Source of the DNA: Sulfurimonas sp. | Lineage (GTDB): Bacteria > Campylobacterota > Campylobacteria > Campylobacterales > Sulfurimonadaceae | Assembly (NCBI RefSeq): GCF_014859695.1 | Contig: NZ_JACUTS010000007.1 | Span: 1 to 46,193, forward strand | DNA length: 46,193 nucleotides | Direction of reading: 5' to 3' | In this document: piece by piece, positions 13,604 through 36,546 of the stretch | Layout of the letters: each line of letters begins with the position of its first letter | Numbering within the stretch: the stretch's first letter is position 1 | Translations under genes and position numbers: made by a program | The notes under the pieces: generated by a model | What the model was told of the DNA's origin: nothing | Database searches by the model: none | Seen by the model: the letters and a program-made list of their open reading frames with translations, nothing else

Positions 13604-13640
13604 CTTATATATATTGACCCATAATTTATAGGAGGGTATA

Positions 13641-14327
13641 GTGGCAAAAAAATCCGTATGGAGTGACAATCGCTTCTGGCAACGTTCAGCAGGATGGGTT
13701 ACAGGTTTCGCATCGATGCTTCTTATTTGGTTAACGTTTGATACGATACCGCAAATAATGTTAGGCTCAGATGAGGATTTACAACAAGGCGTAACAAAGA
13801 GGGTTCCAGGACCTACTGTTATTAATTATAAAATTACTTATGAAATGGACACAAAACGTGGCCATGAAATTCCAGTAATTGGTGGTGCAAATGCAGAAGG
13901 AAGATCATCTTTTCAAGAAAAAGAGACATTCTTTGGAAGAGATGACTGGAGCGAAGAAGAGGCTGCGGGGCTGCTTCACCTAGGTAAATTAGGCTCACAA
14001 ACTAAAAACTGTATGAACTGTCATACTCTTCTTGGAAACGGTGCATACTATGCTCCAGACTTAACAAAGGCTTGGTTAGATCCAGCATGGGGTCCTAATG
14101 GTCCAATGCAAGCTATGACAGGCAAAAATACAAAAGAAGAAGCAATGGCGGAATTTTTACAATTCCCATCTCAATATCCTACTCATGCGCGTATGATGCC
14201 AAACCTTGGTATTACTCCTGAAGAGGCTAAGGGTTTAGTTGCTTTCTTAAAACATATGTCATCAATAGATACAAATGGTTTCCCAAGAAACTTTGGAAAA
14301 ATAGAAGGAGCAGTACATGGTAAATAG
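13641..14327 (+). CDS. norC: Nitric oxide reductase subunit C (membrane-anchored cytochrome c)
   Basis: One N-terminal helix (about residues 14-32) anchors a periplasmic domain with a single heme c site, CMNCH at 124-128, followed by TLLGNGAYYAPDLT and a Met axial ligand in RMMPN. This is the electron-input subunit of cytochrome-c-type NO reductase. At 228 aa it is longer than the roughly 150 aa of proteobacterial NorC because of an extra 50-60 residues (PGPTVINYKITYEMD and GRDDWSEEEAAG) between helix and heme. Start is GTG with AGGAGG six bases upstream. Overlaps norB by 11 bp. Confidence 0.95.
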   Translation: MAKKSVWSDNRFWQRSAGWVTGFASMLLIWLTFDTIPQIMLGSDEDLQQGVTKRVPGPTVINYKITYEMDTKRGHEIPVIGGANAEGRSSFQEKETFFGRDDWSEEEAAGLLHLGKLGSQTKNCMNCHTLLGNGAYYAPDLTKAWLDPAWGPNGPMQAMTGKNTKEEAMAEFLQFPSQYPTHARMMPNLGITPEEAKGLVAFLKHMSSIDTNGFPRNFGKIEGAVHGK

Positions 14328-15741: not shown

Positions 15742-15751
15742 GGAGAAAGTT

Positions 15752-15904
15752 ATGTTTGAACCATTTGTAGATGTAGTTCCAAGTTTCTTTGGTTGGTTAA
15801 ACCAAGGTCCCTTGACTCTAACAATTTTTTTACATACTGTTATCGTACTTCCAATGTTTTGGATTTACAAGCAAGAGAAAGCTCGTTTAGAGCAAGAGGG
15901 TTAA
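15752..15904 (+). CDS. Small membrane protein, 50 aa, between norB and nirS
   Basis: The sequence begins MFEPFVDVVPSFFGWLNQGP and ends KQEKARLEQEG, with one membrane helix at about residues 20-38. AAGGAG precedes the ATG and the gap from norB is 10 bp, so it is translated in the same operon. It resembles in size and plan the small single-helix subunits of heme-copper oxidases (such as CcoQ), but I cannot show homology. Below usual ORF length cutoffs, so probably often unannotated. Confidence 0.7.
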   Translation: MFEPFVDVVPSFFGWLNQGPLTLTIFLHTVIVLPMFWIYKQEKARLEQEG

Positions 15905-15920
15905 TTTAACAATTAGTCGT

Positions 15921-15939
15921 GCAGGGCCTTCGGGCCCGC
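15921..15939 (+). promoter_or_regulatory. GC-rich UUCG-tetraloop hairpin in the norB-nirS intergenic RNA
   Basis: GGGCC-TTCG-GGCCC (15924-15937), extended by two more G-C pairs across a one-base bulge. It is the most GC-rich stem in an AT-rich neighbourhood, lies 31 bases before the nirS ATG, and lacks a T-run. More likely an mRNA processing or stability element than a terminator. Confidence 0.55.
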
Positions 15940-15969
15940 ATATTCGTCTATTTTAGAAGGAGAAATAAA

Positions 15970-17613: not shown

Positions 17614-17652
17614 TTTGCACCTTCTCTCCCTCGTGGAGAGAAAACTTTTTTT
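17605..17652 (+). terminator. Double-hairpin intrinsic terminator of nirS
   Basis: GGTGCA/TGCACC (17605-17610 with 17616-17621) encloses the nirS stop codon. It is followed directly by TTCTCTCC/GGAGAGAA (17622-17629 with 17635-17642) and a run of seven T at 17646-17652. It separates nirS from the d1-synthesis genes. Confidence 0.8.
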
Positions 17653-17815
17653 ATATTAACAATTAAGTTCTTCAACTAAAGTACTCATAAGCTATAAAAA
17701 TATATAAAGCTTCTCAGCTATACAATAACTATATAAAATTAATAATTTTGACAATTATAAGCCAAAGTTCAAGCTTGATTTAGCTAGAATAATATATAAA
17801 CGTAAAGAGACAATT

Positions 17816-18121
17816 ATGAAAAAAAGTATACTAATATCGCTCGCTTTAACGTCTTTTTTATCTGCAAACGAAATGGATGGAAAAGAGGTTTTTGAAATGT
17901 ACTGCTGGGGATGTCATCATCAGATTTCTGAAGCGTTTGGTCCATCCTTTACAGAGATTGCTTCCAAGCGCTCTTATGAGGAGATACAAGCCTATATTTT
18001 AGATCCTGAGTCAATGTATAAAGCGTTTGGATATAAACGCACAGTGATGACAAAATTAAAGCTAACAGACAAAGAGAGAGAAGCTATTGCAAAATATGTT
18101 CTCTCATACAAAGGTAAATAA
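17816..18121 (+). CDS. nirC: Small monoheme cytochrome c, NirC-like
   Basis: 101 aa with a signal peptide ending near SANEM, one heme c site CWGCH at 30-34, and a Met in VMTKLKLT as likely sixth ligand. Small c cytochromes of this kind (NirC) accompany nirS and can donate electrons to it or to NirF-type steps. It begins a five- to seven-gene unit: its TAA directly abuts the nirJ ATG. The gene lies 202 bp after nirS beyond a strong terminator, so it needs its own promoter in the A/T-rich gap; candidates such as AATATATAA near 17791 are too degenerate to call. Confidence 0.85.
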   Translation: MKKSILISLALTSFLSANEMDGKEVFEMYCWGCHHQISEAFGPSFTEIASKRSYEEIQAYILDPESMYKAFGYKRTVMTKLKLTDKEREAIAKYVLSYKGK

Positions 18122-19243
18122 ATGTTTAGATTATCAAACCTCATATCTTCAGTTGTTGAGGGTAAGCCTGAGAGAGTACTGGATGGTTCTATTGCGATAT
18201 GGAACTTCACAAACCGCTGTAACCTCTCATGTCTTCACTGCTACTCGAAATCAACACTTGATGAAGTGGATACACTAACAACTGAGCAGATTAAAAAAAC
18301 TATTTTAGAGATGAAAGCGAACGGAGTCAAGTTTATTATCTTCTCAGGAGGAGAGCCACTCACAAGAAAAGATCTCTTTGAGATTGCCGATTTTTGCAAA
18401 GAAAACGGCATTATTACCTACCTCTCAAGCAACGGTCTCTACTTCACAAAAGGAAATATACAGCGCATAGTAAGCACGTTCAACTATGTCGGTGTGAGCA
18501 TAGACGGTGATGAGCCTACGCATGACTATTTCAGAGGACTCAAGGGTGCATTTAAAGAGACGCTTAAAGCTGTGCAACTTGCAAATGCAACAGGGGCTAA
18601 AGTCGGCATACGCTTTACAATGACAAAAGATACCATTAACTCTCTAGAGTATATTTTTGACCTTGCCCAAAAAGAGAATATTCCAAAAATCTATATATCT
18701 CACCTTGTCTACTCAGGGCGTGGGCTTGATAATCTAAAAATGGATCTATCAAAAGAGCAAAGAAGAGAGGCTATGGAGTTTATAATTGATAAAGCTTTTG
18801 AGTACTACGAAACAGGAAGAGATATAGAGATAGTAACAGGAAATATGGAGCAGGATGCAATCCTATTTTTAAATAGATTTGCCCAAAAATATCCTCATCT
18901 TAAAGAGACAATGAGAGAGCGTCTTGTCTCTTGGGGCGGCAACAGTGCGGGACGCAAGCTCTTAAACATAAACAGCGAGGGCGACGTAAGACCTGACCCA
19001 TTCTTCCCTCTAACAGTCGGGAACATAACAAAGCAGGATTTCGGGGAGATTTGGCAAAGCGGTGAACTGCTAGATCAGTTAAGAGTTCATCCTAGACGTC
19101 AGATAAGCGGCATCTGCGCAGAGTGTGAGCAGATAGATATTTGTAACGGCGGCTCTAGATCAAGAGCCTACGCTATTACCGGTGATTTATGGAGCGAAGA
19201 TCCATCATGCTACCTAAGTGAACAAGAGAGAAGGAAAGATTAA
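18122..19243 (+). CDS. nirJ: Heme d1 biosynthesis radical SAM protein NirJ
   Basis: 373 aa. The radical SAM cluster motif is CNLSCLHC (Cys33, Cys37, Cys40), with the GGEPL SAM-binding loop and a C-terminal SPASM-like cluster region (ICAECEQIDICNGGSR and a later Cys in DPSCY). NirJ removes propionate chains from didecarboxysiroheme to install the d1 oxo groups. Tight packing: starts on the base after nirC ends and shares one base with nirF (TAATG). Related AhbC/AhbD enzymes look similar, but position next to nirF and nirS makes NirJ the best call. Confidence 0.92.
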   Translation: MFRLSNLISSVVEGKPERVLDGSIAIWNFTNRCNLSCLHCYSKSTLDEVDTLTTEQIKKTILEMKANGVKFIIFSGGEPLTRKDLFEIADFCKENGIITYLSSNGLYFTKGNIQRIVSTFNYVGVSIDGDEPTHDYFRGLKGAFKETLKAVQLANATGAKVGIRFTMTKDTINSLEYIFDLAQKENIPKIYISHLVYSGRGLDNLKMDLSKEQRREAMEFIIDKAFEYYETGRDIEIVTGNMEQDAILFLNRFAQKYPHLKETMRERLVSWGGNSAGRKLLNINSEGDVRPDPFFPLTVGNITKQDFGEIWQSGELLDQLRVHPRRQISGICAECEQIDICNGGSRSRAYAITGDLWSEDPSCYLSEQERRKD

Positions 19244-20382
19244 TGAAAATAAGTAAAACAGTAGTAGGCATCTCCCTTCTGGCGGCGATGTTTATAAACG
19301 TTCACGCCAAAGGACTAAACCCGATACTCGCAGAGCTAAGAGGAAACGATAAGCTTTTTGTTGTTGAGAGAGAGAGCAGTTCGCTTGCTATTATTGAGCA
19401 AGGGCTAACGAGAAACCATATGGAGGGGATGCACGACATGAATCACGGCGTTGTAAAATTTTATGACAACGACGGATATGTCATCTCCCGTGACGGATAT
19501 ATTATAAAGTTTGACCCTATTGAAGAGAAGATTCTCAAAGAGTTTAAAACAAGCGATAGTGCAATCGGCTTTACTGTAACTAAGAACTACATCGCTGTTG
19601 CAAACTACGCAAAAAAGAGTGTTGATATTTTAGATAGAGATTTAAACCCTATTAAGTCGTTTGAAACCGGTTCAAAAAATGTCGGGATTAAACAGTATAA
19701 GAACTACTTGGTTTTCTCTCAGATGGATAATGATAAAATCACAGTACTAAAAGATAAAAATGAGGGCAAAGGGCTGCCTGACTTTGAGATATACAAAGAG
19801 TTTGAAGATGTCGGTGTTATGCCCTTTGACGCTATGATAAAAAACAACCATTTTATTACCGGATTTTTTAAAAGTGACTTTTTCGGCGTTGTTGATCTCG
19901 ACACAATGACATACTCAAAAATCGATATTTTACTTGAAGACAGAAAGCCCGTACTTAAAGTTCCGCACTTTGGCTTTTGGAGCATAAGTGACGGGCATGT
20001 TTTTATACCGGCTGTCGGCAACAACAAGGTTCTTGTTTATACTCCTGATTTTAAATTTGTAAAAAACATCGAAACAGAGGGACTTCCTGTCTTTACTACT
20101 CTTAGTCCTGATCAAAAATATATGGCAGTAACGTTTAGCGGCGATAAATTTCCTGTTGTACAGATCATAGACACAAAAACTCTAGAGGTTATAAAAAGAT
20201 TTGAGTTTGACGGAAAAGTGCTACATGCGAGATGGTCCAACCTTAGACCAAATCTCTATATATCCGTAAATGATACAAACAAAGTTGCCGTTATTAATAC
20301 AAAAGAGTGGTATCTCGCTCGTGAGATGTATAATGTTAAAAAACCGTCTGGTTTATTTATTTACGGAGAGGAAAGAAAATAA
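19243..20382 (+). CDS. nirF: Heme d1 biosynthesis protein NirF
   Basis: 379 aa with a cleavable signal peptide (cleavage probably after VHAKG), then a NirS-like beta-propeller without heme c. Family features include MTYSKIDILLEDRKPVLKVP and a late HARWSNLRPNLYISVND block ending KKPSGLF. NirF acts in the periplasm, binding a d1 precursor at a late step of heme d1 formation. The lipobox of some NirF proteins is absent. It overlaps both neighbours by one base (TAATG). Confidence 0.92.
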   Translation: MKISKTVVGISLLAAMFINVHAKGLNPILAELRGNDKLFVVERESSSLAIIEQGLTRNHMEGMHDMNHGVVKFYDNDGYVISRDGYIIKFDPIEEKILKEFKTSDSAIGFTVTKNYIAVANYAKKSVDILDRDLNPIKSFETGSKNVGIKQYKNYLVFSQMDNDKITVLKDKNEGKGLPDFEIYKEFEDVGVMPFDAMIKNNHFITGFFKSDFFGVVDLDTMTYSKIDILLEDRKPVLKVPHFGFWSISDGHVFIPAVGNNKVLVYTPDFKFVKNIETEGLPVFTTLSPDQKYMAVTFSGDKFPVVQIIDTKTLEVIKRFEFDGKVLHARWSNLRPNLYISVNDTNKVAVINTKEWYLAREMYNVKKPSGLFIYGEERK

Positions 20383-21122
20383 TGGGGAAAGTCTACTTAA
20401 CCGGTGCAGGACCGGGAGATATTGAGCTATTGACTCTAAAGGCGCTTAGGGTTATCAAAGAGGCAGATGTGGTTATTTATGACCGTTTGGCAAACCCTGA
20501 TATTTTAAAAGAGGCGAAAAGCGGTTGTGAATTTGTCTATGTTGGAAAAGAGGATGGCAGACATATCATGCCTCAGGATGACATTAACGAAGTAATCTAT
20601 CAAAATTCACTCAAATATGAGAATGTGGTTCGTCTTAAAGGTGGAGATCCGTTTGTTTTTGGACGCGGCGGAGAAGAGGCGCTTTATCTGCATGAAAGAG
20701 GCATTAGATTTGAAGTAATCCCGGGTATTACATCTTCAATCAGTGCTCCGGCATATGCCGGTATTCCTGTTACACATCGCGGTGTTGCGGTTAGCTTTAG
20801 AGTTGTAACGGGACATGAGTCTCCTCATAAAAAAGAGTCCCAGATTCCATGGGAGACCTTTAAAACAGATGATACTATCGTCTTTTTGATGGGGCTTCAC
20901 AATCTTCCTAAAATATCTAGAAAACTTATTCAAATCGGAAAATCTGAGGATTATCCGTGTGCTGTAATATCCAAAGGAACAACCAAAGATCAGATTGTTG
21001 TTGTAGGCACGCTCAAAGATATCGTAGAGAAAACAAAAGATTTGCCTACGCCGGCGCTTATTGTTGTTGGAAAAGTCGTTGAACTTAGAAAACAGTTAGA
21101 TTGGTTTGAGGGAAATGTCTAA
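20382..21122 (+). CDS. nirE: Uroporphyrinogen-III C-methyltransferase (SUMT; NirE/CobA)
   Basis: 246 aa single-domain methylase: VYLTGAGPGDIELLTLKAL at the start, DRLANPDIL, RLKGGDPFVFGRGGEE, PGITSSISAPAYAGIPVTHRG, and a final PTPALIVVGKVV. It makes precorrin-2 from uroporphyrinogen III, the entry to siroheme and heme d1, feeding the Met8-like enzyme at 9141. Being in the nir operon, it is probably the dedicated NirE; cobA would be an equally valid name. Overlaps nirF by one base and the kinase gene by eight. Confidence 0.92.
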   Translation: MGKVYLTGAGPGDIELLTLKALRVIKEADVVIYDRLANPDILKEAKSGCEFVYVGKEDGRHIMPQDDINEVIYQNSLKYENVVRLKGGDPFVFGRGGEEALYLHERGIRFEVIPGITSSISAPAYAGIPVTHRGVAVSFRVVTGHESPHKKESQIPWETFKTDDTIVFLMGLHNLPKISRKLIQIGKSEDYPCAVISKGTTKDQIVVVGTLKDIVEKTKDLPTPALIVVGKVVELRKQLDWFEGNV

Positions 21123-22641
21123 TCTCCAAAATACCTCCGAAGCGGTTTTAATCGCACCAAATATCTACTGGGTCGGTATGCATCTAAAAAACGACCCATT
21201 TCAATGTCATCCATACCTCATCAAAAACGGCAATGAGTCAATTCTAATCGATCCCGGCTCCATGCTTGAGTTTAGCGAGACAGTTAGAAAAGTAAAAACG
21301 ATTATGGAGATGAGCTCTATAAAATACATTGTCCTTCATCATCAAGATCCGGATCTTGCTGCAGCAGTGCCGGAGATAGAGAAGCTTATAAACAGAGCTG
21401 ACCTCCGGATCGTAACACACTCCAGAATGTCTCTTCTGATAAAGCACTATCTTGTTACTTCAAGCTATTACGAGATTGATAAAAATGAGTATCAGCTCCT
21501 TACCTCCAGCGGATTTAAGCTTGAATTTTTAACCACTCCATACTGCCACTCTCCAGGAGCATTTGTCAGCTATGAGCCTGTTTCAAAAACTCTTTTCTCA
21601 GGCGACATATTTGGGGGAATCGAGGAGTCTTGGGATTTTTATGCAGATGAGAGCTATTTTTTTAAAGCCAAGCGGTTTCATGAGGAGTATATGCCTAGCA
21701 AGGATATATTTAACTACTCACTTAGTAAAATTGAGAAGCTTGACCTTGAGATGATAGCTCCCCAGCACGGCTCAATTATAGAGAAAAAATATATTCCCCA
21801 GTTGATAGAAGATATGAAAAATCTTGACTGCGGGCTCTATATAGAGGAAAAATATAACCAAGAACTCATCGACACCATAGAAGAGCTAAAGAGAAAAGAG
21901 CAGTCTCTAAGAGAGAGAAACCTGATGCTCTCAGAGCAGTCAAAAAGAGCAGAAATTGGAGAGATGATAGGCAACATTGCTCATCAGTGGCGCCAGCCTT
22001 TGGCAATCATAAACACATCACTGGCAATCCTAAAAGAGAAAAATAGAGCGGATATGCTAAGCAAGGATGAGATTGCAGAGAAGCTAGAGAAGATGGAGAA
22101 GAGAGTAATCTATATGTCTGAGACCATAGAGGATTTTATGAGCTACTACACCCCGGAGAGGGAAAAGGCTTACTTTAACGTAAGTGAAGCGGTAGAGAAG
22201 GCGATTGATATAGTAAACCTTAAGTCAAATGAGCGAGATATACATCTAGAACTGCTGTTGCATAGCAAATATAAGGTTTACGGGCTTATGAATGAGTTTG
22301 TGCAGGTAGTCGTATCTATTTTATCAAATATCAACGATTTAATTACCATAAGAGAGGTTAGAGATCCTGCTGTGAGCATCTCGCTCTATGATGAGGATGG
22401 GTATATTGTTCTCTCTATCAAAGATAATTGCGGAGGAGTTGATGAAAAAAACCTAAGTAAAATATTTGATCCCTACTTTACTACAAAGCACAAATCAATA
22501 GGCACCGGACTGGGTCTGCATATCGCGAAGATGATTGTAGAAGAGAACATGAGCGGTGTGCTCGGTGCAAAAAATATCTACTCTCCAAAAGACGAAAAAA
22601 TTGGAGCAGAATTCACCATAAAGATAAAAAATGAAAGCTGA
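21115..22641 (+). CDS. Sensor histidine kinase with N-terminal diiron ODP (FprA-like beta-lactamase-fold) domain
   Basis: 508 aa, no membrane segment, so a cytoplasmic sensor. Residues 1-240 form a flavodiiron-type beta-lactamase domain with metal ligands in HHQDPD (75-80), His145 (CHSPGAF), Asp164 (SGDIFGG) and His218 (APQHGS); the flavodoxin half of true FprA is missing. A coiled coil (about 240-280) leads to the kinase: NIAHQWRQP with His290, an N box, DNCGGV and GTGLGLHIAKMIVEE. ODP domains bind O2 and can react with NO, so the likely signal is O2, NO or redox. Start is ATG 21115, inside nirE by eight bases. Pairs with the response regulator that overlaps its end. Confidence 0.9.
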   Translation: MSNLQNTSEAVLIAPNIYWVGMHLKNDPFQCHPYLIKNGNESILIDPGSMLEFSETVRKVKTIMEMSSIKYIVLHHQDPDLAAAVPEIEKLINRADLRIVTHSRMSLLIKHYLVTSSYYEIDKNEYQLLTSSGFKLEFLTTPYCHSPGAFVSYEPVSKTLFSGDIFGGIEESWDFYADESYFFKAKRFHEEYMPSKDIFNYSLSKIEKLDLEMIAPQHGSIIEKKYIPQLIEDMKNLDCGLYIEEKYNQELIDTIEELKRKEQSLRERNLMLSEQSKRAEIGEMIGNIAHQWRQPLAIINTSLAILKEKNRADMLSKDEIAEKLEKMEKRVIYMSETIEDFMSYYTPEREKAYFNVSEAVEKAIDIVNLKSNERDIHLELLLHSKYKVYGLMNEFVQVVVSILSNINDLITIREVRDPAVSISLYDEDGYIVLSIKDNCGGVDEKNLSKIFDPYFTTKHKSIGTGLGLHIAKMIVEENMSGVLGAKNIYSPKDEKIGAEFTIKIKNES

Positions 22642-23320
22642 AAAAATCAAAGACATATCTATTTTACTGGCAGAAGATGAGACGGAGTTGCGTGAGACTT
22701 TATCTGAATATCTACAACTATTCTTCAGCAGAGTCTATACGGCATCGTGCGGAAATGAGGCGTATGATATATATAAGCAAAAAAGTCCCGATATTATTTT
22801 AACCGATATAAACATGCCGAACCTTGACGGTTTAGAGATGATTGCGAAAATAAGAAAAGATGACAAAGAGACGAAAATAATAGTAATAAGCGCTCATTCA
22901 GATCAAGAGAAACTGCTCCAAGCAGTAAAACTTCATCTTGAAGCGTATCTTATTAAACCGATAAAAACAGATACTCTTAAAAAAATGCTCTTTGACACGG
23001 TTGAGCTTATAAGAAAAACTTCCCACCGCGTCTATGTAAACGAGACCACATATTGGGATTACGACACAAGTACTCTGTGGAAAAACGCTAAAGAGATAAA
23101 ACTTAGAAAGATGGAGAGTCTTCTCTTGAGGCTTCTCTTCTCAGAACCAAACCGCTGTTTTTCTGCCCAAGAGATATTCGAGGCTCTTCATGAAGGCAAA
23201 GAGAATAAAGAGTTCTCTTCACATGCCATAACATCTCTTATGAAGCGCATTAGAATGAAGCTACCAGGGGAGTTGATTCACAATATATACGGGTTTGGCT
23301 ATAAAATCATTCTTACTTAA
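22631..23320 (+). CDS. Response regulator, receiver plus winged-helix DNA-binding domain
   Basis: 229 aa. Receiver domain with acidic pocket (AEDE at 14-17), phospho-acceptor Asp59 in LTDINMPN, and Lys in LIKPIK. The C-terminal domain (about 130-229) is OmpR-like, ending IHNIYGFGYKIIL. It overlaps the ODP kinase gene by 11 bp, so the two form a cognate pair that is probably tied to the nir operon. Targets are not visible from sequence. A hairpin shared with the convergent Sel1 gene ends the operon. Confidence 0.9.
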   Translation: MKAEKIKDISILLAEDETELRETLSEYLQLFFSRVYTASCGNEAYDIYKQKSPDIILTDINMPNLDGLEMIAKIRKDDKETKIIVISAHSDQEKLLQAVKLHLEAYLIKPIKTDTLKKMLFDTVELIRKTSHRVYVNETTYWDYDTSTLWKNAKEIKLRKMESLLLRLLFSEPNRCFSAQEIFEALHEGKENKEFSSHAITSLMKRIRMKLPGELIHNIYGFGYKIILT

Positions 23321-26644: not shown

Positions 26645-27172
26645 TTAAAATGTAGCTTTTATTAAAAGATCAACCTGATCACGCACACACATAAACATCA
26701 TGCAAGGCATCTCAATCCCGTAATCGCTCATTAAAATCATCGAATTTGCCTCTATAACCAAGCTGCCATCTATCGTTGTTATTTTAGCATCTGCGCTCAA
26801 CTCTCTTTTTTCTCCGTGAAAATCAAGCGTGCCGTTGATAACATAACCATCCTCTTTCTCTGTTTTTACTATACTCGATATTGTGTAGGTAGCAAAAGCA
26901 AATTTATCCGATTGAATCTCTTTATACATGCTCTTATCTCTGTCGCTCTTATCACTTGTAAAAAGAGTTGTCTCAACCCAAAACTTACCATTAATAGTAG
27001 TAATATCGTTGTTCTCTATGGTTAAATCCGCCTTGAGATAGTTATTTACAGGGTCAATGGTGCTATCCATCATCATCTCTGTGTGTGCTGCGACATAGCC
27101 GCTTTTCAACTCTAAGTTAATCGCAAAGAGGGGGAGTGCTAAAAGCAACATCGTAAATATTTTTTTCATCAT
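26645..27172 (-). CDS. YceI family periplasmic protein
   Basis: 175 aa with a signal peptide (MMKKIFTMLLLALPLFA) and the YceI lipocalin-like beta-barrel, which binds isoprenoid chains such as polyprenyl lipids. Recognisable segments are ITTINGKFWVETTLFTSDK, FATYTISSI and VINGTLDFHGEKRELSADAKI. The first of two ATGs at 27172 is close to AAGGA (3 nt); the second at 27169 has better spacing. An extended -10 (TGCTAAAAT on the minus strand near 27203) suggests its own promoter despite the upstream operon. Confidence 0.85.
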   Translation of the reverse strand: MMKKIFTMLLLALPLFAINLELKSGYVAAHTEMMMDSTIDPVNNYLKADLTIENNDITTINGKFWVETTLFTSDKSDRDKSMYKEIQSDKFAFATYTISSIVKTEKEDGYVINGTLDFHGEKRELSADAKITTIDGSLVIEANSMILMSDYGIEMPCMMFMCVRDQVDLLIKATF

Positions 27173-27217: not shown

Positions 27218-28126
27218 TTAATGCAGAGCTCTTGAGAGAGCAACCGCCAAACCAAGACCTGATGCCATCCAACCGACAAATATCATCATAAATGCGAGTT
27301 TCGTTATGCTCGCTTCTTTGCTAAGAGTTCTAAATACGACCACGTTGTAGTAGGAGATGGTAAAAGGGTAGAACATAGCAAGAAGAAGTGGAAGCTCCAA
27401 ATATGAGAGTGTATAGCTAGACGCAAAAATAAGAGCTATAAAAATATGCTTTTTTGTTTTTGATATGTTGATGAAATATGCACCGACTAATCCCAAGAGG
27501 TGAAATGCGATGATTGTAAAAGTGTACTGCGACCAGATATCTATGTTTGAGTGTCTGGAGAGAGTCTCAAAAAGATTTGAATCCAAAAATATCCATAACA
27601 TCAAAGGGAGATATTGAAGATATGGGTGTGAAACCTCTTTCTCATCCGTCTCGACCATATAGTCTCTAAGCACAAAAGCGCTAAAAAGCGCAATTGCGCT
27701 AAAGCCGACTGCCATATATACTCTGTTATCGGCATCATAGGTGAAAAAATATGTGCCGATTGTGTATGCTATCGCAAGAGCGAAAAGGAGCTCTTTTTGC
27801 TGTTTTGCTTTAAATAGATAGATCCCAAGCGGAGCCATAACACCGACTGAGAGACCAAGCAGAATAAGTGTAAAACTGTTGTAGTCAGGGTATAGAGTCG
27901 ACAAAAGCAGCTGCAGACCAAGAGCAACCATTATCTTATGTATAGGATTGCTGATTTTACCCCATGAAAAACCGCCCAGAATAGTCCCTGTCACTCCGCC
28001 GACAAACATCGGAAAGAGTGTCACAATATCTGAGTTGTAGTGCTCGGCAACGCCCGTCTGGACTATCAAGAGATAGAAACAGAGCTCAAATCCAAGAAGT
28101 AAAACAAGAGCTAAAGAGTGGATCAT
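27218..28126 (-). CDS. Polytopic membrane protein, 302 aa, in the oxidase-like/ABC operon
   Basis: Nine to ten predicted helices fill almost the whole protein. Short loops such as GGFSWGKISNPIHK between early helices recall MFS-type carriers, but the length (302 aa) is short for MFS and I cannot assign a family. Histidines at SHPYLQYLP and RHSN could be functional. Its ATG overlaps the stop of the oxidase-like gene (ATGA), so it is the last member of a five-gene translationally coupled set, and probably a partner of that protein. Confidence 0.7.
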   Translation of the reverse strand: MIHSLALVLLLGFELCFYLLIVQTGVAEHYNSDIVTLFPMFVGGVTGTILGGFSWGKISNPIHKIMVALGLQLLLSTLYPDYNSFTLILLGLSVGVMAPLGIYLFKAKQQKELLFALAIAYTIGTYFFTYDADNRVYMAVGFSAIALFSAFVLRDYMVETDEKEVSHPYLQYLPLMLWIFLDSNLFETLSRHSNIDIWSQYTFTIIAFHLLGLVGAYFINISKTKKHIFIALIFASSYTLSYLELPLLLAMFYPFTISYYNVVVFRTLSKEASITKLAFMMIFVGWMASGLGLAVALSRALH

Positions 28127-29664
28127 AAGCGGCTTCTAAAGATGAGATATAAAAGAGCGTAAGAGATGTCGTAAAAACCTACAAGAAGCCCAAGTGCGTC
28201 TATCGTCCCAAGGTAAAAGAGAGATAAAAAAACACTCCCCGTAATAAGACGAGCAATTGAGGTAAAATAGGCAAAAAGATGCCCCTCTTTGGTTATTCCA
28301 ACAAGATGTAAAATTCCCACAAAGCCCATAAAACCAAATACCAAATAGTAGTAAGGCGTAAAATGTAACCCTAAAAACTCAAACAGTATTGGAGCTGATA
28401 AAAAGAGTATCAATGCGCCCAGACCATCAGATGCAAAACCGTTTAGATGGTATAGCCCAAGCGGAGAGGGTTTTGAAATCTTTATCTTTTTTACAATAAA
28501 ATAGATAATTCCAATAACCGCTAAAATACCGCCCAAGAGACGAATCTGCCACATGGATATGACATCAATCGCAAAAATTTCTGCTTCATCAAAACCTGCC
28601 AGCGTGAGAGAGATAAAAATAACCCCGATAACAAGAAGCCAAAAGTGCATAAACCTCTCGGGCAGTTTGTAGAAATATTTCAACACGCTAAGAGACATAA
28701 AAAATATTCCAAGCCCAATGGCGACATGAGCATGTGCGACTATCAAATCGTTTCTATGAAACGGCCAGCGGATTTCTGGGATAAAAAGGATATTGCCCTG
28801 AATCATCACAAACAAAAATGCCCAGATGGAGATGACCAGATAAGGCGTGGATTTCAGAGTAATCTTTGCATCCATGCACCACTTTATAAGCAGCGGGGCG
28901 TAGGCAAAAGTTAGCCACTGATAAACCCACTCTTCATTGTATGAAAGCTCTCCTCTAAAAATGCGCGTGGCAACCGAGAGAGCGTATCCGACGAGCGGAA
29001 GAATCCAAAAGATGTGCCATTTAGCGACAAACTCCTCTTTTGCATGCAGCTTTATCATAAGATAAAAGAGCGGAATCAGCGTAAAACTCATACCCAGAGT
29101 ATTGTCCCCGTGAGGTCCTATAAGCGTTTTTTCAACCTGTCCGTAAGTCGGATTCATTAGAACAATAAGTGCCAAAGGTGCCACAAAAAGAAGAGCTTTT
29201 GAAACTTTTACCCAAAGAGGCGCAACCTCATACTGTTTTATGGTTTTAAAGATTGCAATAATATAAAAAATACCCGAAGCCGCAAGTATAAAGTTAAGTT
29301 CGTACGCAAAATCATAAAACGGCAGACCTCTTTGAACTCCCAAAGAGATAGAGAGAACCGCCATAAATAAAAAAAGATGCCACAACAAAAAGTAGTTTCT
29401 TAAGGGCTCTACTGCAGCGCTTAAATCCAGCTTCTCTTTCGCAAAGAGCGCAAAGGGAAGTAGGGAGAGAGCGAGCATAATCGGACCGTATAGCATCAGC
29501 GTAATATGAAGGGAGCGCGCGGTTGAAGCATTTAATAGGGTATTGTCTAAAGAGGAAAATCCCAACATCTGTGCCGCATATATAACACCCGCTGTAATAG
29601 AGCCTAAAAATATAAAAGCCCAAATAGGGATAACCGAATCTATTAATCTATAAAATTTGTCCAT
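28123..29664 (-). CDS. Heme-copper oxidase subunit I-like membrane protein lacking the CuB His-His pair
   Basis: 513 aa with about 14 predicted helices. Similarity to the CcoN/NorB superfamily is visible in two places: ARSLHITLMLYG (His53, helix II low-spin heme ligand) and FHRNDLIVAHAHVAIG (His311 and His313, helix X, as in cbb3 and NorB). GPHGDNTLGMSF (His185) aligns with the helix VI histidine of CcoN. The helix VII His-His pair that completes the CuB/FeB site is missing: the matching stretch reads GYALSVATRIF. Hence it may bind heme b but probably cannot reduce O2 or NO in the usual way. It overlaps the ABC ATPase gene by 17 bp and the next gene by 4. No cytochrome c subunit adjoins it. 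Confidence 0.7.
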   Translation of the reverse strand: MDKFYRLIDSVIPIWAFIFLGSITAGVIYAAQMLGFSSLDNTLLNASTARSLHITLMLYGPIMLALSLLPFALFAKEKLDLSAAVEPLRNYFLLWHLFLFMAVLSISLGVQRGLPFYDFAYELNFILAASGIFYIIAIFKTIKQYEVAPLWVKVSKALLFVAPLALIVLMNPTYGQVEKTLIGPHGDNTLGMSFTLIPLFYLMIKLHAKEEFVAKWHIFWILPLVGYALSVATRIFRGELSYNEEWVYQWLTFAYAPLLIKWCMDAKITLKSTPYLVISIWAFLFVMIQGNILFIPEIRWPFHRNDLIVAHAHVAIGLGIFFMSLSVLKYFYKLPERFMHFWLLVIGVIFISLTLAGFDEAEIFAIDVISMWQIRLLGGILAVIGIIYFIVKKIKISKPSPLGLYHLNGFASDGLGALILFLSAPILFEFLGLHFTPYYYLVFGFMGFVGILHLVGITKEGHLFAYFTSIARLITGSVFLSLFYLGTIDALGLLVGFYDISYALLYLIFRSRL

Positions 29665-30271
29665 CTTTTAGCCTGATAATTTGAGTTGCATAATTTTCTA
29701 TCTGCATGTCATGAGAGGCGACAACTACCGTAGTGCCACGCTTTACCGCTTGGGCTAAAAGTCCATAGACTATTTGAGAGTTTTTTGAGTCAAGACTACC
29801 GGTGGGCTCATCCGCAAAGATGATTTTTGGTTCGTTCACAAGAGCGCGGGCAAGTGCCACGCGTTGTCTCTGCCCGCCGGAAATCTCATTTGGATAACGT
29901 GAGGAGAGCTCTAAAATACCTAGTTCTTCAAGTATCTTCTCTATATTTTGTTTCTTATCTTCGAGTGCTGCAAGAGCTATATTTTCATAAACGCTTAAAT
30001 AGTTTATAAGGTAGTGAAACTGAAAAACAAACCCCACCTTGCTTTGACGGAAATAGTCTATATTTTTGATTTTTTCAACCGACTCACCATCTATTAAAAG
30101 CTCTCCGCTTGAGGGTTTTAGCAGGGTTGAGAGAATGGAGAGAAGTGTTGATTTTCCGCTTCCGCTCTCTCCGCTTAAAAAGAGAAATTCGCCGCTCTTT
30201 ATCTCGAACGAAAGGTCAAAAAGAACCTGCTCTGCGCCGTAAAAGTGAGAAACATGTGACGCTTGTATCAT
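29648..30271 (-). CDS. ABC transporter ATPase (LolD/MacB type)
   Basis: About 207 aa with Walker [11 protein letters not shown]-loop FVFQFHYL, signature SGGQRQR, Walker [13 protein letters not shown] and H-loop SHD. The phrase DEPTGSLD is typical of the LolD/FtsE/MacB branch, which couples to FtsX-fold permeases such as the one upstream. I chose ATG 30271, overlapping the permease stop as ATGA with AAGGA five bases before it; an ATG two codons earlier is in frame. Probably works in lipoprotein, peptide or mechanotransmission-type transport, not solute uptake. Confidence 0.9.
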
Positions 30272-31341
30272 GCACATCCTTGATTTATCAGAAGTATCGG
30301 GTCCGTTTTAGAGGCAATCCACGCTGGTATCAGTGAGCCCAAAAGAGCCATAAAAATCGTTGAGGCAAAAACATACAGCGCGGTTGAGAGCGATAGTGTT
30401 CCGTTTACATAGCCCTGAAGCATCTCAATATGCGGAAGCATAGCCAAAATGCCAAGACTCAGAAGAAGCGCAAATATATAGGCAGAAATACTCATAATAA
30501 GTGTTTCAAAAAAGAGATTTTTAATGATAAAAAGGCGGCTCTTGCCGAGTGCGCGCATGATTCCAAACTCCTCTTTGCGAGAGTTTACAATCATGCTCAT
30601 AACCGAGGCAATTCCCATGAGTCCCATAGCAAAAGCGAGCGTTGAGATAACAAGGGATGAGTTCTCAATGATTTTAAACTGGTTATACTCTTTTACAAAA
30701 GTCTGTGTCGTCTTTACCTCGACCTCACTGCTTAACTCGGATATTTTTCCAACAATGGCATCTATCTCGCTTGGAGAGGAGGATGAGACCAAGAGAAAAG
30801 ATGCCGAGCGGTTAAAAAGCTTGCCCGCATCTCTTATATTCATAACAACACCGCCCTCTTCAAAGCCTATTTCACTGCTGTAAACACCCGATATTGTAAA
30901 TTTCTTATTTCCTATATTGATCTCTTTTACAACAAACTGTTTTGCAAGATTCTCACCGAGTATAACCTCTCCCTCTTTTGGATAAACTCCCTCCGCAAGC
31001 TTGTAGTGAGGAAAATGGTTTGCGGTCGTACCGTAAATCCCCGCAATGGGTATATGCCCAATAGGAGAGGCGCCGACAATCATAGCATAGCTTGAAGAGA
31101 CATGCGGCAGTGCATCTATCTTTTGAATAAGCGCAATATCTACGTTTGAAAAAAATGTATCCGAGATCCCTTTTTGTGTGACAATGATATCGCCGTCCGT
31201 ATTAATCATCTTAGAGTACATCCCGATTACGCCCTGAGATACGGAGCTGATGAGAAAAATCGCCATGACGGCGATGGTAATAGATGAGAATATTAGAAGG
31301 GTTTTAAAAGAATTTTTGCTGAGTGCTTTGAGTGAAATCAC
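30268..31341 (-). CDS. ABC transporter permease (MacB/FtsX type)
   Basis: 357 aa: helix 1 (about 15-38), a large periplasmic domain of about 190 residues (MacB_PCD-like, with GDIIVTQKG and VILGENLAKQF), then three helices starting at SSLVISTLAFAMGLMGIASVM. NSRKEEFGIMRALGKSR is the cytoplasmic coupling loop of FtsX-fold permeases. Such permeases extract or push periplasmic substrates. GTG start at 31341 overlaps the stop of the preceding gene. Forms a transporter with the ATPase encoded next. Confidence 0.88.
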   Translation of the reverse strand: MISLKALSKNSFKTLLIFSSITIAVMAIFLISSVSQGVIGMYSKMINTDGDIIVTQKGISDTFFSNVDIALIQKIDALPHVSSSYAMIVGASPIGHIPIAGIYGTTANHFPHYKLAEGVYPKEGEVILGENLAKQFVVKEINIGNKKFTISGVYSSEIGFEEGGVVMNIRDAGKLFNRSASFLLVSSSSPSEIDAIVGKISELSSEVEVKTTQTFVKEYNQFKIIENSSLVISTLAFAMGLMGIASVMSMIVNSRKEEFGIMRALGKSRLFIIKNLFFETLIMSISAYIFALLLSLGILAMLPHIEMLQGYVNGTLSLSTALYVFASTIFMALLGSLIPAWIASKTDPILLINQGCA

Positions 31342-31808
31342 TTCTCAATCGCCATTTTTAACTCTTCTTTTGTCGAGATAAACGATATCTCTTTGATTTT
31401 TGACTCTTCTATATGCAGAAGAGTGATTTTTTGCTCTTTGTTTGGAACTGCGTTTTGGAACTTTTCTCCATAATGCAGGTATATTAGATGTTTATACTTT
31501 TGTAGTTTTGGCAGGGCAAACATATTCGTAATTAACGAGGGCATCTTGTTTATGTCCGCTATAAATACAGAGTTGTTTTTTGGCAGATAAAAAGGGCTCT
31601 GAGTATTGAGATATTCGTTAACCAAAGCTCCCGTATCTTTTTCAAAAGCGACTATTACCAACTTGGTCTTTTTGGGTATTTTCATTTGGCGCCCCATCGG
31701 CGTCTCATATTTAAAGCTATCCAGCATATTAAGCGGAGAGGTTATAGTAAGCGGGGCTGCACCTAAAATCGCGACACTAAGAGTTAAAGCGGTTAAAAAT
31801 CTGTTCAT
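31338..31808 (-). CDS. Exported protein, 156 aa, first gene of the oxidase-like/ABC operon
   Basis: A signal peptide (cleavage near ILGAAPL) precedes a compact alpha/beta domain with a thioredoxin-like strand order (KTKLVIVAFEKDTGALVNEYL, NSVFIADINKMP) but no CxxC, so no thiol redox role. The ending HIEESKIKEISFISTKEEL is charged. Strong AAGGAAAAAA site before the ATG. Family not recognised. Being upstream of, and overlapping, the MacB-like permease gene, it may be the substrate-handling periplasmic partner of the transporter. Confidence 0.7.
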   Translation of the reverse strand: MNRFLTALTLSVAILGAAPLTITSPLNMLDSFKYETPMGRQMKIPKKTKLVIVAFEKDTGALVNEYLNTQSPFYLPKNNSVFIADINKMPSLITNMFALPKLQKYKHLIYLHYGEKFQNAVPNKEQKITLLHIEESKIKEISFISTKEELKMAIEK

Positions 31809-31851: not shown

Positions 31852-32598
31852 TTAATTGATGGTAAAAACAGGTATTTCGGCTGCAACTCTATATCTTACC
31901 CTGACGCCCCAGTACCCAAGCCCTCTAGATACATATAGAAGCGTATTTCTATATCTGTAAAGCCCTGAAATATAGGGTTGAAAATATTTAACGACAATGC
32001 TAAAAGGGTATATCTGCCCGCCATGCGTATGTCCGCTTAGTTGTAAATCTATGCGAAAATCTTCCACATGAGCTATATCTTTTGGCTGATGAGTAAGCAG
32101 TATAGTAGAGAGTTTTGGGTCTAATCTACCAAAGAGCTCTTTTATAGGTCGTTTTATCCCTCTTACAAAACCGTATCTATCACTAAGTCCCACCAACTGC
32201 ACAACAGAGCCCTTCAGTGCTATCTCCGCTATCTTGTTGTCAAGACAATGAACTCCGACACTCTCCATAACCGACTCTAGATCTTTTGGACCATAAACGA
32301 TATCGTGATTGCCGGTCACATAGTAAGATGGCGCTTCAAGCTCTCTAAAACACTCTAGCTGCTCTTTTACATTTAGCGCGGAAGTTTGAAGTATATCTCC
32401 GCTAAAGAGCACAAGATCAGGCTTAAGAGCATTTGTTTTTTTGACAAGATTTTCAAGATACCGAACCCCAACATCTTTACTAAGATGCAAATCTGAGAGC
32501 AAAATTATGCGAAGCCCGTTTAAAGAGCTGCAAAATGAATCGCTCTGAATCGCTATCTCATCAAAGGGAAAATATTTCCAGCCTATCTGAAGAGACAC
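31852..32598 (-). CDS. Calcineurin-like metallophosphoesterase (YkuE-like)
   Basis: 248 aa with the five metallophosphoesterase motifs in order: LSDLHLS, FSGDIL, TGNHD, LTHQP and SGHTHGGQ. Overall layout is that of the YkuE / UDP-2,3-diacylglucosamine hydrolase-like group. Unlike many YkuE proteins it has no N-terminal membrane helix or Tat signal, so it probably acts in the cytoplasm or at the membrane face. GTG start at 32598, 11 bp after the upstream lipoprotein gene. The physiological phosphoester is unknown. Confidence 0.85.
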   Translation of the reverse strand: MSLQIGWKYFPFDEIAIQSDSFCSSLNGLRIILLSDLHLSKDVGVRYLENLVKKTNALKPDLVLFSGDILQTSALNVKEQLECFRELEAPSYYVTGNHDIVYGPKDLESVMESVGVHCLDNKIAEIALKGSVVQLVGLSDRYGFVRGIKRPIKELFGRLDPKLSTILLTHQPKDIAHVEDFRIDLQLSGHTHGGQIYPFSIVVKYFQPYISGLYRYRNTLLYVSRGLGYWGVRVRYRVAAEIPVFTIN

Positions 32599-33553: not shown

Positions 33554-34144
33554 ATGAAACACCTAAAACTAATCGTCGGCTTACTTCTAATAGCTCTCAT
33601 ATTTTCTGGATTTTGGTCGGGAAAGAGCAAAAGAGAGATACGCGAAGAGAACAGGCTTGAGAGAGTAGATCGTATCATTGCCAGCAACCAAACAATGCAA
33701 CTGCTCTATAAATATGCACCTGAGGCTAGAAAAATTGTGCTCCGCTCTTACGGATATGCAACATTTAGTAACGTCGGAGTAAATCTAGTTCTCTTCTCGG
33801 CAGAGGGCGGAAAAGGGATGGCACATAACAACAGGACAGGTATCAACACCTACATGAACATGGCGTCCGGCGGCTTAGGGCTTGGGCTTGGAGTTAAAGA
33901 TTTTAGAGCTGTTTTTCTCTTTGAGAACAAAAGAGCTTATGACACTTTTGTAAACTCTGGCTGGGAAGCAAACGCGCAAGCAGATGCTGCTGCAAAGTAT
34001 GAAGAGAGCGGCGGCTCACTTAATGCGGCAATCACTGTTGCTCCAGGCGTAAGACTCTATAAACTAACACAAAACGGCTTAGCGCTTCAAGCTACTGTTC
34101 AAGGAACAAAATATTGGAAAGATGCAGAACTTAACAAAAACTAA
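33554..34144 (+). CDS. SYLF-domain (Ysc84-type lipid-binding) protein, exported
   Basis: 196 aa with an N-terminal signal or anchor (LIVGLLLIALIFSGFW) and the SYLF domain: YGYATFSNVGVNLVLFSAEGGKGM, a Gly-rich SGGLGLGLGVKDFRAVFLFEN and ending GTKYWKDAELN. SYLF domains bind phosphoinositides in eukaryotes; bacterial versions are envelope proteins of unknown lipid preference. The ATG at 33554 is 82 bp after repeat element A; a TATAAA at about 33521 could also promote it. Monocistronic, followed by the DUF3015 gene 58 bp on. Confidence 0.85.
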   Translation: MKHLKLIVGLLLIALIFSGFWSGKSKREIREENRLERVDRIIASNQTMQLLYKYAPEARKIVLRSYGYATFSNVGVNLVLFSAEGGKGMAHNNRTGINTYMNMASGGLGLGLGVKDFRAVFLFENKRAYDTFVNSGWEANAQADAAAKYEESGGSLNAAITVAPGVRLYKLTQNGLALQATVQGTKYWKDAELNKN

Positions 34145-34202
34145 TTTTTAGTTAAGCTAATAAATCTTACAATAGTTTGATCTTAAAATAAAAGGAAGTT
34201 CA

Positions 34203-34649
34203 ATGAAAAAAATTCTAGTTAGTCTTGCGGCAGTTATAGCACTAAGCTCATCTGCAATGGCAGGCGTAAACTCTCAGACTGGTTGTGGTCTTGGTTCTAT
34301 GATTATCAAAGATGATTCAACAGCTGTGTTATTGGCTCTTCAAGCTACGACAAACGGTACTTCAGGCAACCAGACATTCGGTATAACTTCAGGAACTTTG
34401 GGTTGCCAAAAAACTCAATTTGTAATGAATGGACAAGCTGAAGAGTTTGTTGCTTCAAATATGGATCAACTTGCTAAAGAGATAGCAATCGGACATGGAG
34501 AGAGCATCGATACGTTGGCAGAACTTTTAGAGGTATCCGACCAAGCTACTTTCTCTGCATCTCTACAAGAGAACTACAACAAAATTTACACTAGCCAAGA
34601 TGTAAAAATGGCTGATGTACTTGACAATATCTCTACAACAACTCTTTAA
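34203..34649 (+). CDS. DUF3015 family exported protein
   Basis: 148 aa with a classic signal peptide cut after SSAMA, then GCGLGSMIIKD, NQTFGITSGTLGC and EEFVASNMDQLAKEIAIGHGESIDTLAELL, the characteristic order of DUF3015. The two cysteines could be disulphide-bonded in the periplasm. AAAGGAAG site before the ATG. Ends at a 14-bp-stem hairpin. Members are common in Campylobacterota and marine proteobacteria; function is not established. Confidence 0.88.
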   Translation: MKKILVSLAAVIALSSSAMAGVNSQTGCGLGSMIIKDDSTAVLLALQATTNGTSGNQTFGITSGTLGCQKTQFVMNGQAEEFVASNMDQLAKEIAIGHGESIDTLAELLEVSDQATFSASLQENYNKIYTSQDVKMADVLDNISTTTL

Positions 34650-34656
34650 AAAAAGT

Positions 34657-34688
34657 CAAAATCAAACGAATTTTTTCGTTTGATTTTG
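34657..34688. terminator. Intrinsic terminator with a 14-bp perfect stem
   Basis: CAAAATCAAACGAA (34657-34670) pairs without mismatch to TTCGTTTGATTTTG (34675-34688) around TTTT. It follows the DUF3015 stop by 7 bp. A-rich on the left and T-rich on the right, so it fits termination of the plus-strand gene. Confidence 0.8.
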
Positions 34689-34719
34689 CTCTTCTAAACA
34701 TCAACTTCAGGAACTTCCT

Positions 34720-36546
34720 ATTTTAAACAAATTATTTTTGCTACTTACTATTTCTCTCTCTCTTTTGAATGCTTCTTCAGATCTTTATAAACAAAAAGCG
34801 CAAGAACTAAATCTATCGGACTCAAGATACTGGAATCTGCTGCTGCATATGCAAGACGGCAGAAGCGAGATAGACGATGAGAGATTTTTTTTATCACCCA
34901 ACGGCAAAACAGATGCAAAAGATGAACTTAATGCCACTATTGATGCGCTTTTGAATGAGACTGCTTTTGATGACAACGCAACTGCATGCAGATTTCCTGC
35001 AAGAAAAGCCTGGCTAAAAGAAAAACTCTCTATTTCAAACCTTCCTGAAGTGAAATGTGAAAAGTATGATGCCATCGTCAAGAGACTAAAGCCAAAATCT
35101 GTAACTCTTGTTTTCCCATCAGCCCACATAAACTCTCCAGCTTCCATGTTTGGACACACATTTTTACGTATTAACTCGGTATATGACTCTAAACTTCTCT
35201 CTTATGCCGTAAATTACGCTGCAGATGCAAATCCGGATGAAGAGAATGCCGTACTTTTTGCAATCAAGGGTCTCTTTGGAGGATACTTCGGAAGATACTC
35301 GCTGCTTCCATACTATGACAAACTCAAAGAGTATAGAGATAGCGAGCAGAGAGACATTTGGGAGTATGATCTTGATTTTAGCGAAGATGAGACGCGCAGA
35401 ATGATAGAGCATATCTGGGAGCTCAACGAAACACACTCATACTACTATTTTTTTACCGAAAACTGCTCATACAACATGCTCTGGTTCTTAGAGGTTGCAA
35501 GACCGTCGCTACACCTCAGAGAGTATTTTAACTATCAGGTAATTCCTCTAGAGACTGCTCATGTCGCAAATCTAGAAAACATCATTAAAGATAAGTTTTT
35601 CAGACCATCAAAAAGAACCACTCTTTTAAAATATGAGGAACTTATAGAGAGAAAAAATATCCACCTCCCGCTACAACTGGTAGATTTGGACATCTCACTA
35701 GATGATGTTTTAACAAATTTAAATATTGAAGTGCAGCAGAAAAAATATATTCTAGAAGCCTCAATAGAGCTGCTTGAGTACAAATTTAGCAAAAGCAAAA
35801 TAGAAAAAGAGAGATACTTAGAGCTCTTCCATGAGCTCTCAAAAGCAAGAGCAAAACTTGGGCAGGGAGATAAACTGGATATAAAAACCCCTCCAAATCC
35901 CATTGAGAGCCATAGAGCTATAAGAGCAACCATCGGCGCCGGCTCCAGAGATGGTAACGCTATTGGCTTTTTAGGTGTTCGCCCCGCATATCATGACCTA
36001 GAAGATAGTAACTATGGATTTTTAAGAGGCACTCAAATTGAGTTTATGAATCTTGAGCTCTCCTACTCAAAGAGTGACTTAGAGGTTGAAGATGCAACCA
36101 TTCTCTCTATTGTCTCTCTTGCACAAAGATCTCACTTTTTTGAAAGCCTCTCTTGGAGAACAAAGTTTGGCTGGGATAGAAACTCTCTTGAGTCTACAGC
36201 AAATTTCATAGGTACTGTAGGCGTAGGACTGAGCTGGGGAAATAAACTTGGCTACACTTACATCATGGCTGATCCGCTTTTTTATCTCGGCGGAAAAGCA
36301 AAATCTGCAATAGGCGGTTCTGTCGGTGTCGTTTTTGACAGATATAACTCAATGAGCACTAATATTGAAGCTACTAGAAGATGGTACGATAACGGTGAGG
36401 AACAAAATATGGTTGCTCTCTCACAAAGCTTTAGAGTCTCGCAAAACACTCAAATAAAGTTTAAATATGACTATAAAGAGAGAGGCAAACAAGAAGTAAA
36501 TAATAAAGAGGATAGCTTGAGAGTCTATCTAAACCTCTACTTTTAA
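34720..36546 (+). CDS. DUF4105 (Lnb N-terminal-like) periplasmic domain plus outer-membrane beta-barrel-like C-terminus
   Basis: About 608 aa. Residues 100-330 carry the DUF4105 hallmarks: VFPSAHINSPASMFGHTFLRI (GH motif), GGYFGRYSLLPYYDKLKEY, and FFTENCSYNMLWFLE (Cys of the papain-like NlpC/Lnb fold), implying a His/Cys hydrolase. The C-terminal 200 residues have alternating strands (NYGFLRGTQIEFMNLELSYS to a final aromatic YF), as in outer-membrane barrels. The conventional start, TTG at 34738, has no ribosome site at proper spacing; ATT at 34720, six bases after AGGAA, would complete a standard signal peptide (LNKLFLLLTISLSLLNASS), and I use that. Function unknown. Confidence 0.75.
   Translation: MLNKLFLLLTISLSLLNASSDLYKQKAQELNLSDSRYWNLLLHMQDGRSEIDDERFFLSPNGKTDAKDELNATIDALLNETAFDDNATACRFPARKAWLKEKLSISNLPEVKCEKYDAIVKRLKPKSVTLVFPSAHINSPASMFGHTFLRINSVYDSKLLSYAVNYAADANPDEENAVLFAIKGLFGGYFGRYSLLPYYDKLKEYRDSEQRDIWEYDLDFSEDETRRMIEHIWELNETHSYYYFFTENCSYNMLWFLEVARPSLHLREYFNYQVIPLETAHVANLENIIKDKFFRPSKRTTLLKYEELIERKNIHLPLQLVDLDISLDDVLTNLNIEVQQKKYILEASIELLEYKFSKSKIEKERYLELFHELSKARAKLGQGDKLDIKTPPNPIESHRAIRATIGAGSRDGNAIGFLGVRPAYHDLEDSNYGFLRGTQIEFMNLELSYSKSDLEVEDATILSIVSLAQRSHFFESLSWRTKFGWDRNSLESTANFIGTVGVGLSWGNKLGYTYIMADPLFYLGGKAKSAIGGSVGVVFDRYNSMSTNIEATRRWYDNGEEQNMVALSQSFRVSQNTQIKFKYDYKERGKQEVNNKEDSLRVYLNLYF

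Follow-up and report, generated by a model that had tools for sequence, protein, structure and literature searches.

The 46,193-nucleotide window analyzed here (positions 1 to 46,193 of contig NZ_JACUTS010000007.1, Sulfurimonas sp.) carries on its minus strand a gene module in which a degenerate heme-copper oxidase (HCO)-fold membrane protein, D, is encoded next to the permease (B) and the ATPase (C) of a MacB/FtsX-type ATP-binding cassette (ABC) transporter, together with an exported protein (A), a second membrane protein (E), and a YceI-family lipocalin (Y). Genes A to E run from 31808 to 27218 as the stop-to-start chain described in a first-pass annotation of this DNA, with all reading frames confirmed and overlaps of 4, 10, 17, and 4 nucleotides, and Y follows E after 45 bp as part of the same gene set. 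The pairing of D with the ABC genes, the central claim of that annotation, is fully supported, and the linkage is conserved at about 90 loci; the set itself proved larger than the five genes first proposed, since it takes in the YceI gene, the strongest hint at function, and, in many lineages, a gene for a metal-dependent hydrolase. D is an HCO-fold protein that appears to derive from the CcoN/NorB branch and is not classed as an oxidase or a nitric oxide (NO) reductase. The module looks like an undescribed cell-envelope system that probably handles a redox-active membrane lipid, and no description of an HCO-fold protein lacking CuB in an ABC/YceI system was found in the open-access literature.

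Fold and ligand pattern of protein D

The D profile matched nothing among PDB sequences at E ≤ 1, so the link to the HCO superfamily rests on profile-profile alignment, the Pfam COX1 family, and the fold. Comparison by hhalign with the CcoN and NorB profiles, as the first-pass annotation had advised, aligned D to Campylobacterota CcoN (E = 3.9e-7 global, 4.3e-5 local) and to NorB (E of about 4e-4), while the control comparisons of D with the E, B, and Y families and with reversed CcoN gave no signal. The COX1 match of D itself (E = 2.7e-6, 27.0 bits) falls under the gathering cutoff of 34.8, and 72 of 79 D orthologs match COX1 at E ≤ 0.1. The AlphaFold2 model, built on the 79 orthologs, has a predicted local distance difference test (pLDDT) value of 87.8, and its top PDB matches by Foldseek are cbb3 CcoN (E down to 4.2e-7) followed by other HCO subunits. 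Structural alignment with VIA superimposed model residues 1 to 399 on cbb3 9g6b (Z 24.0, 371 residues aligned, root mean square deviation 5.1) and on the NO reductase cNOR 3o0r (Z 23.9). Both programs thus recover the 12-helix fold of HCO subunit I, at an identity of only about 14% in the structural matches. Residues 400 to 513 form an additional helical membrane segment outside this fold. D has no Pfam Ni_hydr_CYTB match and does not belong to the cytochrome b561 family.

Canonical HCO-superfamily enzymes keep a heme plus a CuB/FeB site. The first-pass annotation had named His53, His311, and His313 of D as the heme ligands of helices II and X, and the alignment to CcoN bears this out, pairing H53 with H64, H311 with H366, and H313 with H368; on the propionate side of helices IX and X, H303 pairs with H358 and D306 with D361. 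Residues H53, H185, D187, N188, Y227, R234, E245, W246, H303, H311, and H313 are invariant in 79/79 orthologs, as are Y405, D413, H453, R472, and D499 in the C-terminal extension, and Y242, N305, and D306 are conserved in 78 of them. In total, approximately 75 residues are invariant across the orthologs. D is under purifying selection (nonsynonymous divergence, dN, 0.04 to 0.12; synonymous divergence, dS, 0.44 to 1.6; dN/dS about 0.07 to 0.11), which argues that it is not a relic.

The CuB/FeB ligand set, one helix VI His plus the helix VII His-His pair, is absent from D. The helix VI-like His185 of the first-pass annotation is invariant, but the CuB-ligand column of CcoN is occupied by D187 in 79/79 orthologs (motif GPHGDNTLGMS), with H185 two residues earlier. 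The helix VII His-His columns correspond to G238/E239 and vary freely among the orthologs; as had been claimed, the pair is missing, with both His found in 0/79 and a single His at one position in 26/79. A restored CuB His pair, which would have made D an ordinary oxidase, was looked for in the 79 orthologs and found in none. Y227 aligns with Y272 of CcoN, a helix VII Tyr whose spacing from the His-His pair suggests that it is the cbb3 active-site Tyr. From this pattern, D should bind two b-type hemes without a standard CuB/FeB site; a rebuilt metal site made of H185, D187, and perhaps E245 is conceivable. Compared with the C-type HCO branch (cbb3 CcoN and NorB), D therefore shares the fold, the helix II and X ligands, the propionate-side His/Asp, and the CcoN helix VII Tyr, and it differs in the lost CuB/FeB ligands, the helix VI His replaced by an invariant Asp, the extra C-terminal membrane region, and a module without cytochrome c subunits.

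The ABC machine, the lipocalin, and a co-inherited gene set

Protein B matches Pfam MacB_PCD and FtsX (63.7 and 59.3 bits, both over the cutoff) and the PDB chains 5xu1_M (6.6e-8) and MacB 5gko_A (9e-6). Protein C matches ABC_tran (E = 9.9e-37, 127 bits) and the NCBIfam models for FtsE (5.6e-55) and LolD (8.9e-55), all under the equivalog cutoffs. With a MacB_PCD periplasmic domain, an FtsX-like transmembrane region, and a LolD/FtsE-class ATPase, B-C is classed by its domains as a type VII ABC (MacB/LolCDE/FtsEX/YbbAP class). The "MacB-like exporter" of the first-pass annotation therefore stands as to the MacB/FtsX type and is refined as to the system. MacAB-TolC shares the permease domain family, whereas here the ATPase is a chain of its own and the operon has no gene for a MacA adaptor or an outer-membrane factor; no MacA (HlyD) gene occurs among the flanking window genes scanned, an unlinked copy elsewhere in the genome not having been searched for. 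Separate chains and the lack of a neighboring MacA/HlyD make LolCDE and YbbAP the better comparison. Type VII ABCs serve periplasmic partners by extracting lipoproteins or hydrophobic compounds, and they also couple to membrane sensor partners (PMC12646458). YbbAP-TesA and LolCDE-LolA have in common with this module an FtsX/MacB-type permease, a separate ATPase, and a periplasmic lipid-handling partner gene (PMC12646458), whereas here there is a single MacB_PCD permease with a redox membrane partner, YceI replaces LolA or TesA, and the associated hydrolases are not exported.

Protein Y contains a YceI domain (47.8 bits, cutoff 23.7) behind an N-terminus that is signal-like by eye, and matches solved YceI proteins at E values from 5.8e-13 (1y0g) to 4.3e-6, which places it in the YceI family. 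Isoprenoids or ubiquinone-8 are the ligands of YceI lipocalins, whose genes are as a rule either linked to one for a di-heme cytochrome b561 or fused with it; in Burkholderia, such a pair (LcoA-BcnA) guards envelope lipids against peroxidation, and the proposed mechanism is that cytochrome b561 re-reduces the quinone of the lipocalin (PMC9113575). The gene for a di-heme-type membrane protein is likewise linked to a YceI gene here, so that D and Y, by analogy, repeat the cytochrome-YceI pairing with a different heme protein. Relative to LcoA-BcnA, the membrane partner is of the HCO fold and not a b561, and the type VII ABC, the E protein, and the exported protein A are additional.

Protein E finds nothing convincing in Pfam. 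Its AlphaFold2 model (pLDDT 93.6) aligns along residues 1 to 302 with EfpA (VIA Z 24.5 over 292 residues), which points to a major facilitator superfamily (MFS) fold, but Pfam finds no MFS domain in E, and 11 helices are predicted against the 12 of that fold. No metal-carrier-type Met or Cys is among its invariant residues. Protein A has no Pfam or PDB relative. A thioredoxin/peroxiredoxin-like identity suggested by eye was rejected, as hhalign comparisons of A with three AhpC/TSA groups were null (best E 0.03, probability 1.6%). A, D, and E have no NCBIfam name, and none of the module proteins contains CxxCH.

Two short conserved D peptide patterns, searched against 84,980 species genomes, recovered 105 confirmed D relatives. 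Going by record titles, the best 80 of the 105 belong to Sulfurimonas, Sulfuricurvum, Sulfurospirillum, Sulfurovum/Sulfurovaceae, Arcobacter-group genera, and related metagenome-assembled genomes. Viral contigs and plasmids yielded no relative. Some are filed under loose names such as "Proteobacteria bacterium" and "Helicobacter cetorum isolate SulCav." By this two-pattern scan, the D family so far looks confined to environmental Campylobacterota. Within the order, D is present at strong scores in 55 of 299 genomes; four more gave only weak matches (E 6e-5 to 5e-4), chiefly to the helix VIII to X region, which ordinary oxidases match as well, and were left uncounted. E is present in 55/55 D-carrying genomes and absent from 244/244 others, and these are the figures to quote because the Fisher test (p = 1.8e-61) ignores shared ancestry.

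Across 93 loci, which include some genes fetched twice from two collections and in which missing members often fall at contig ends, B is present in 89, C in 90, E in 89, Y in 85, and A in 68. With M denoting a calcineurin-like phosphoesterase, the gene order is M-A-B-C-D-E-Y in Sulfurimonas, A-B-C-D-E-Y in Sulfuricurvum, B-C-D-E-Y-A-M in the Arcobacter group, B-C-D-E-Y-M in Sulfurospirillum, and E-Y-B-C-D-A in Sulfurovum. That B, C, D, E, and Y stay together despite such re-ordering is stronger evidence for a functional set than one frozen order would be. A few genomes have lost an intact D. In the congener G032 (locus L028, contig C1, about 7634-7891), D is an 85-codon in-frame remnant in which the 66 N-terminal residues are fused to the last ~20, with A, B, C, E, and Y kept, and in two genomes from another family of the order (G249, C1:1207691-1210187; G272, C10:148431-150943), D is interrupted by in-frame stops or by a frameshift, and E is intact.

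Accessory genes and the denitrification island

Among 60 loci with enough flank, M lies beside the module in 37 and a metallo-β-lactamase (MBL)-fold metal-dependent hydrolase (Lactamase_B_2) in 16, while 7 have neither and none has both. The MBL-fold gene occurs in Sulfuricurvum and Sulfurovum loci (e.g., L091, 9937-10848), and the exclusion follows lineages and is thus suggestive only. In several Arcobacter-group (Arcobacteraceae) loci, the module is followed by genes for a CopRS/HprR-class two-component pair. Genes for a DUF1924 protein (c-type heme) and a cytochrome b561 also occur near the module in this group (e.g., L079, 11292-12995). In the window, a divergent plus-strand group at 33554-36546, encoding a 196-amino-acid (aa) protein without a Pfam match, a DUF3015 protein, and an Lnb_N/DUF7840 protein, is kept beside the module in Sulfurimonas.

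Window positions 8003-23320 form a denitrification island with genes for a NirDL-like regulator/decarboxylase, NorC, NorB, NirS, and NirJ, the last followed by uroporphyrinogen-III methyltransferase and then a sensor kinase and a response regulator. The norCB and nirS genes lie approximately 11 to 16 kb from D, and NorB lies within ~15 kb of D in three congeners (G005, G144, and G213), a within-genus synteny. A denitrification link of D was rejected at the level of the 299 genomes, where the association was not significant for NorB (24/55, p = 0.28) or NosZ (26/55, p = 0.36). This weakens a role in NO or N2O chemistry and with it the NO part of the heme-based gas role raised in the first-pass annotation. 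Coordinates of the module genes, of the sites in D, and of the denitrification markers are collected below.

Table 1. Positions in the window of the module, of sites within D, and of denitrification genes
Feature	Position	Strand	Basis
A: exported 156-aa protein, no known family	31338..31808	-	N-terminal signal-like segment
B: type VII ABC permease, 357 aa (MacB_PCD + FtsX)	30268..31341	-	Pfam, PDB matches
C: ABC ATPase, 209 aa, LolD/FtsE/MacB class	29648..30277	-	Pfam ABC_tran, NCBIfam
D: HCO-fold membrane protein, 513 aa, CcoN/NorB-like, CuB ligands lost, heme ligands kept	28123..29664	-	
E: membrane protein, 302 aa, MFS-like fold, no sequence family	27218..28126	-	AlphaFold2 model, fold match
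Y: YceI-family periplasmic lipocalin (isoprenoid/lipid carrier class)	26645..27172	-	Pfam YceI, PDB
M: calcineurin-like phosphoesterase (YaeI/LpxG-like), lineage-specific member	31852..32598	-	Pfam/NCBIfam scans
D His53 codon, predicted helix II low-spin heme ligand	29506..29508	-	Aligned to CcoN H64
D GPHGDN (residues 183-188), invariant motif, start of helix VI	29101..29118	-	hhalign, ortholog alignment
D residues 238-239, site of lost helix VII His-His pair	28948..28953	-	hhalign column match to CcoN H278-H279
D H311-A-H313 codons, predicted helix X ligands of high-spin and low-spin heme	28726..28734	-	CcoN H366/H368
D C-terminal extension, residues 400-513, four predicted helices beyond HCO fold	28126..28467	-	
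NorB	14317-15741		
Cytochrome cd1 NirS	15919-17613		
NirJ	18122-19243		

A candidate lipid-redox system and its rivals

Both halves of the module have, by analogy, a known parallel, the one in YceI with a di-heme cytochrome and the other in a type VII ABC with a periplasmic lipid partner. We favor a model, with a probability of roughly 0.4, in which A, B, C, D, E, and Y would act as one cell-envelope system. B and C, presumably assembled as B2C2, would use ATP to draw a hydrophobic cargo out of the inner membrane and deliver it to Y, in the way that LolA receives its load from LolCDE and TesA its lipids from YbbAP. The cargo would most likely be an isoprenoid- or quinone-like lipid. D, without CuB, would no longer reduce O2 in the usual way and would instead mediate electron exchange of the quinone pool with the cargo of Y, like the role proposed for the b561 LcoA with BcnA; the cargo would be kept reduced in the periplasm, where a protective role may follow. 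The lack of CxxCH in the module proteins makes a quinol donor more likely than a built-in cytochrome c. E would be an obligate partner, perhaps a flippase or an intramembrane carrier, and the M or MBL-fold hydrolase may process a related metabolite. What the data establish is the gene set, the folds, the ligand pattern, the co-inheritance, and the selection on D; heme occupancy, complex formation, the substrate, the direction of electron flow, and the protective role are inferred. Several points weigh against this model. Heme, quinone, and lipid binding are predictions, the YceI protein might serve in stress defense and have no more than the operon in common with the rest, and the hydrolase exclusion may be coincidental synteny. 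The role of E is left unexplained by the model, and the genomes in which D is broken while the rest is kept suggest that the ABC part may be able to do without D.

A different reading keeps D as an active NO or O2 reductase with a rebuilt heme/non-heme metal site (His185, Asp187, and perhaps Glu245), which the ABC, YceI, and MFS proteins would assemble or supply. The invariance of H185, D187, N188, Y227, E245, W246, the propionate-side H303, and the high-spin H311 exceeds what a dead site would need, Y227 has its counterpart in CcoN, and altered active-site ligands occur in some NO reductase (NOR) families. Among the alternative NORs (eNOR, sNOR, gNOR, and nNOR), gNOR keeps the helix VII His that D lacks. 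We nevertheless consider this reading unlikely, given the variable positions left by the helix VII pair, a module with neither a CuA subunit nor a cytochrome c subunit or CxxCH, and the nonsignificant NorB and NosZ associations. It is less likely still that D uses heme to sense O2, NO, or the redox state of the membrane and gates the type VII ABC in the manner of the BceS-type partners of BceAB. Gas binding would be expected of a five-coordinate heme whose distal pocket is open, type VII ABCs have membrane sensor partners (PMC12646458), and the CopRS/HprR-like pair adjoins the module in Arcobacteraceae; D, however, has no output domain, the whole module is kept in lineages without adjacent two-component genes, and the YceI and MFS proteins would be left over if the role were sensing alone.

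The closeness of D to CcoN also fits a system that matures another respiratory complex or traffics heme or metal for it, with D as a CcoN-derived scaffold and E as a CcoA-like MFS importer, MFS transporters having a part in oxidase biogenesis (CcoA for cbb3). This seems improbable when a COX1-family oxidase occurs in 35/40 sampled genomes and the module in only 55/299, and when E lacks invariant metal-carrier-type Met or Cys. That D is a decaying oxidase relic beside an unrelated ABC operon would agree with the lost CuB site and with its deletion or disruption in a few genomes, but this explanation is barely tenable, being already contradicted by the low dN/dS, the many invariant residues, the strict co-occurrence with E, and the linkage conserved across genera.

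Returning to the lipid-redox model, it is possible, if doubtful, that D is the first known member of a new functional HCO class. It would be a di-heme protein lacking CuB, perhaps equipped with a new His/Asp(/Glu) metal site, and its redox chemistry would be physically coupled to an ATP-driven type VII ABC, so that a redox-active lipid is reduced or oxidized during its extraction from the membrane and transfer to a lipocalin. If true, the HCO fold would have been reused beyond gas reduction, and respiratory cytochromes would be tied to envelope lipid transport. The module offers a testable handle on the cargo of YceI lipocalins and its reduction, questions left open by the LcoA-BcnA work. The hosts are sulfur- and nitrogen-cycling Campylobacterota, and the module may therefore matter for life across oxygen gradients.

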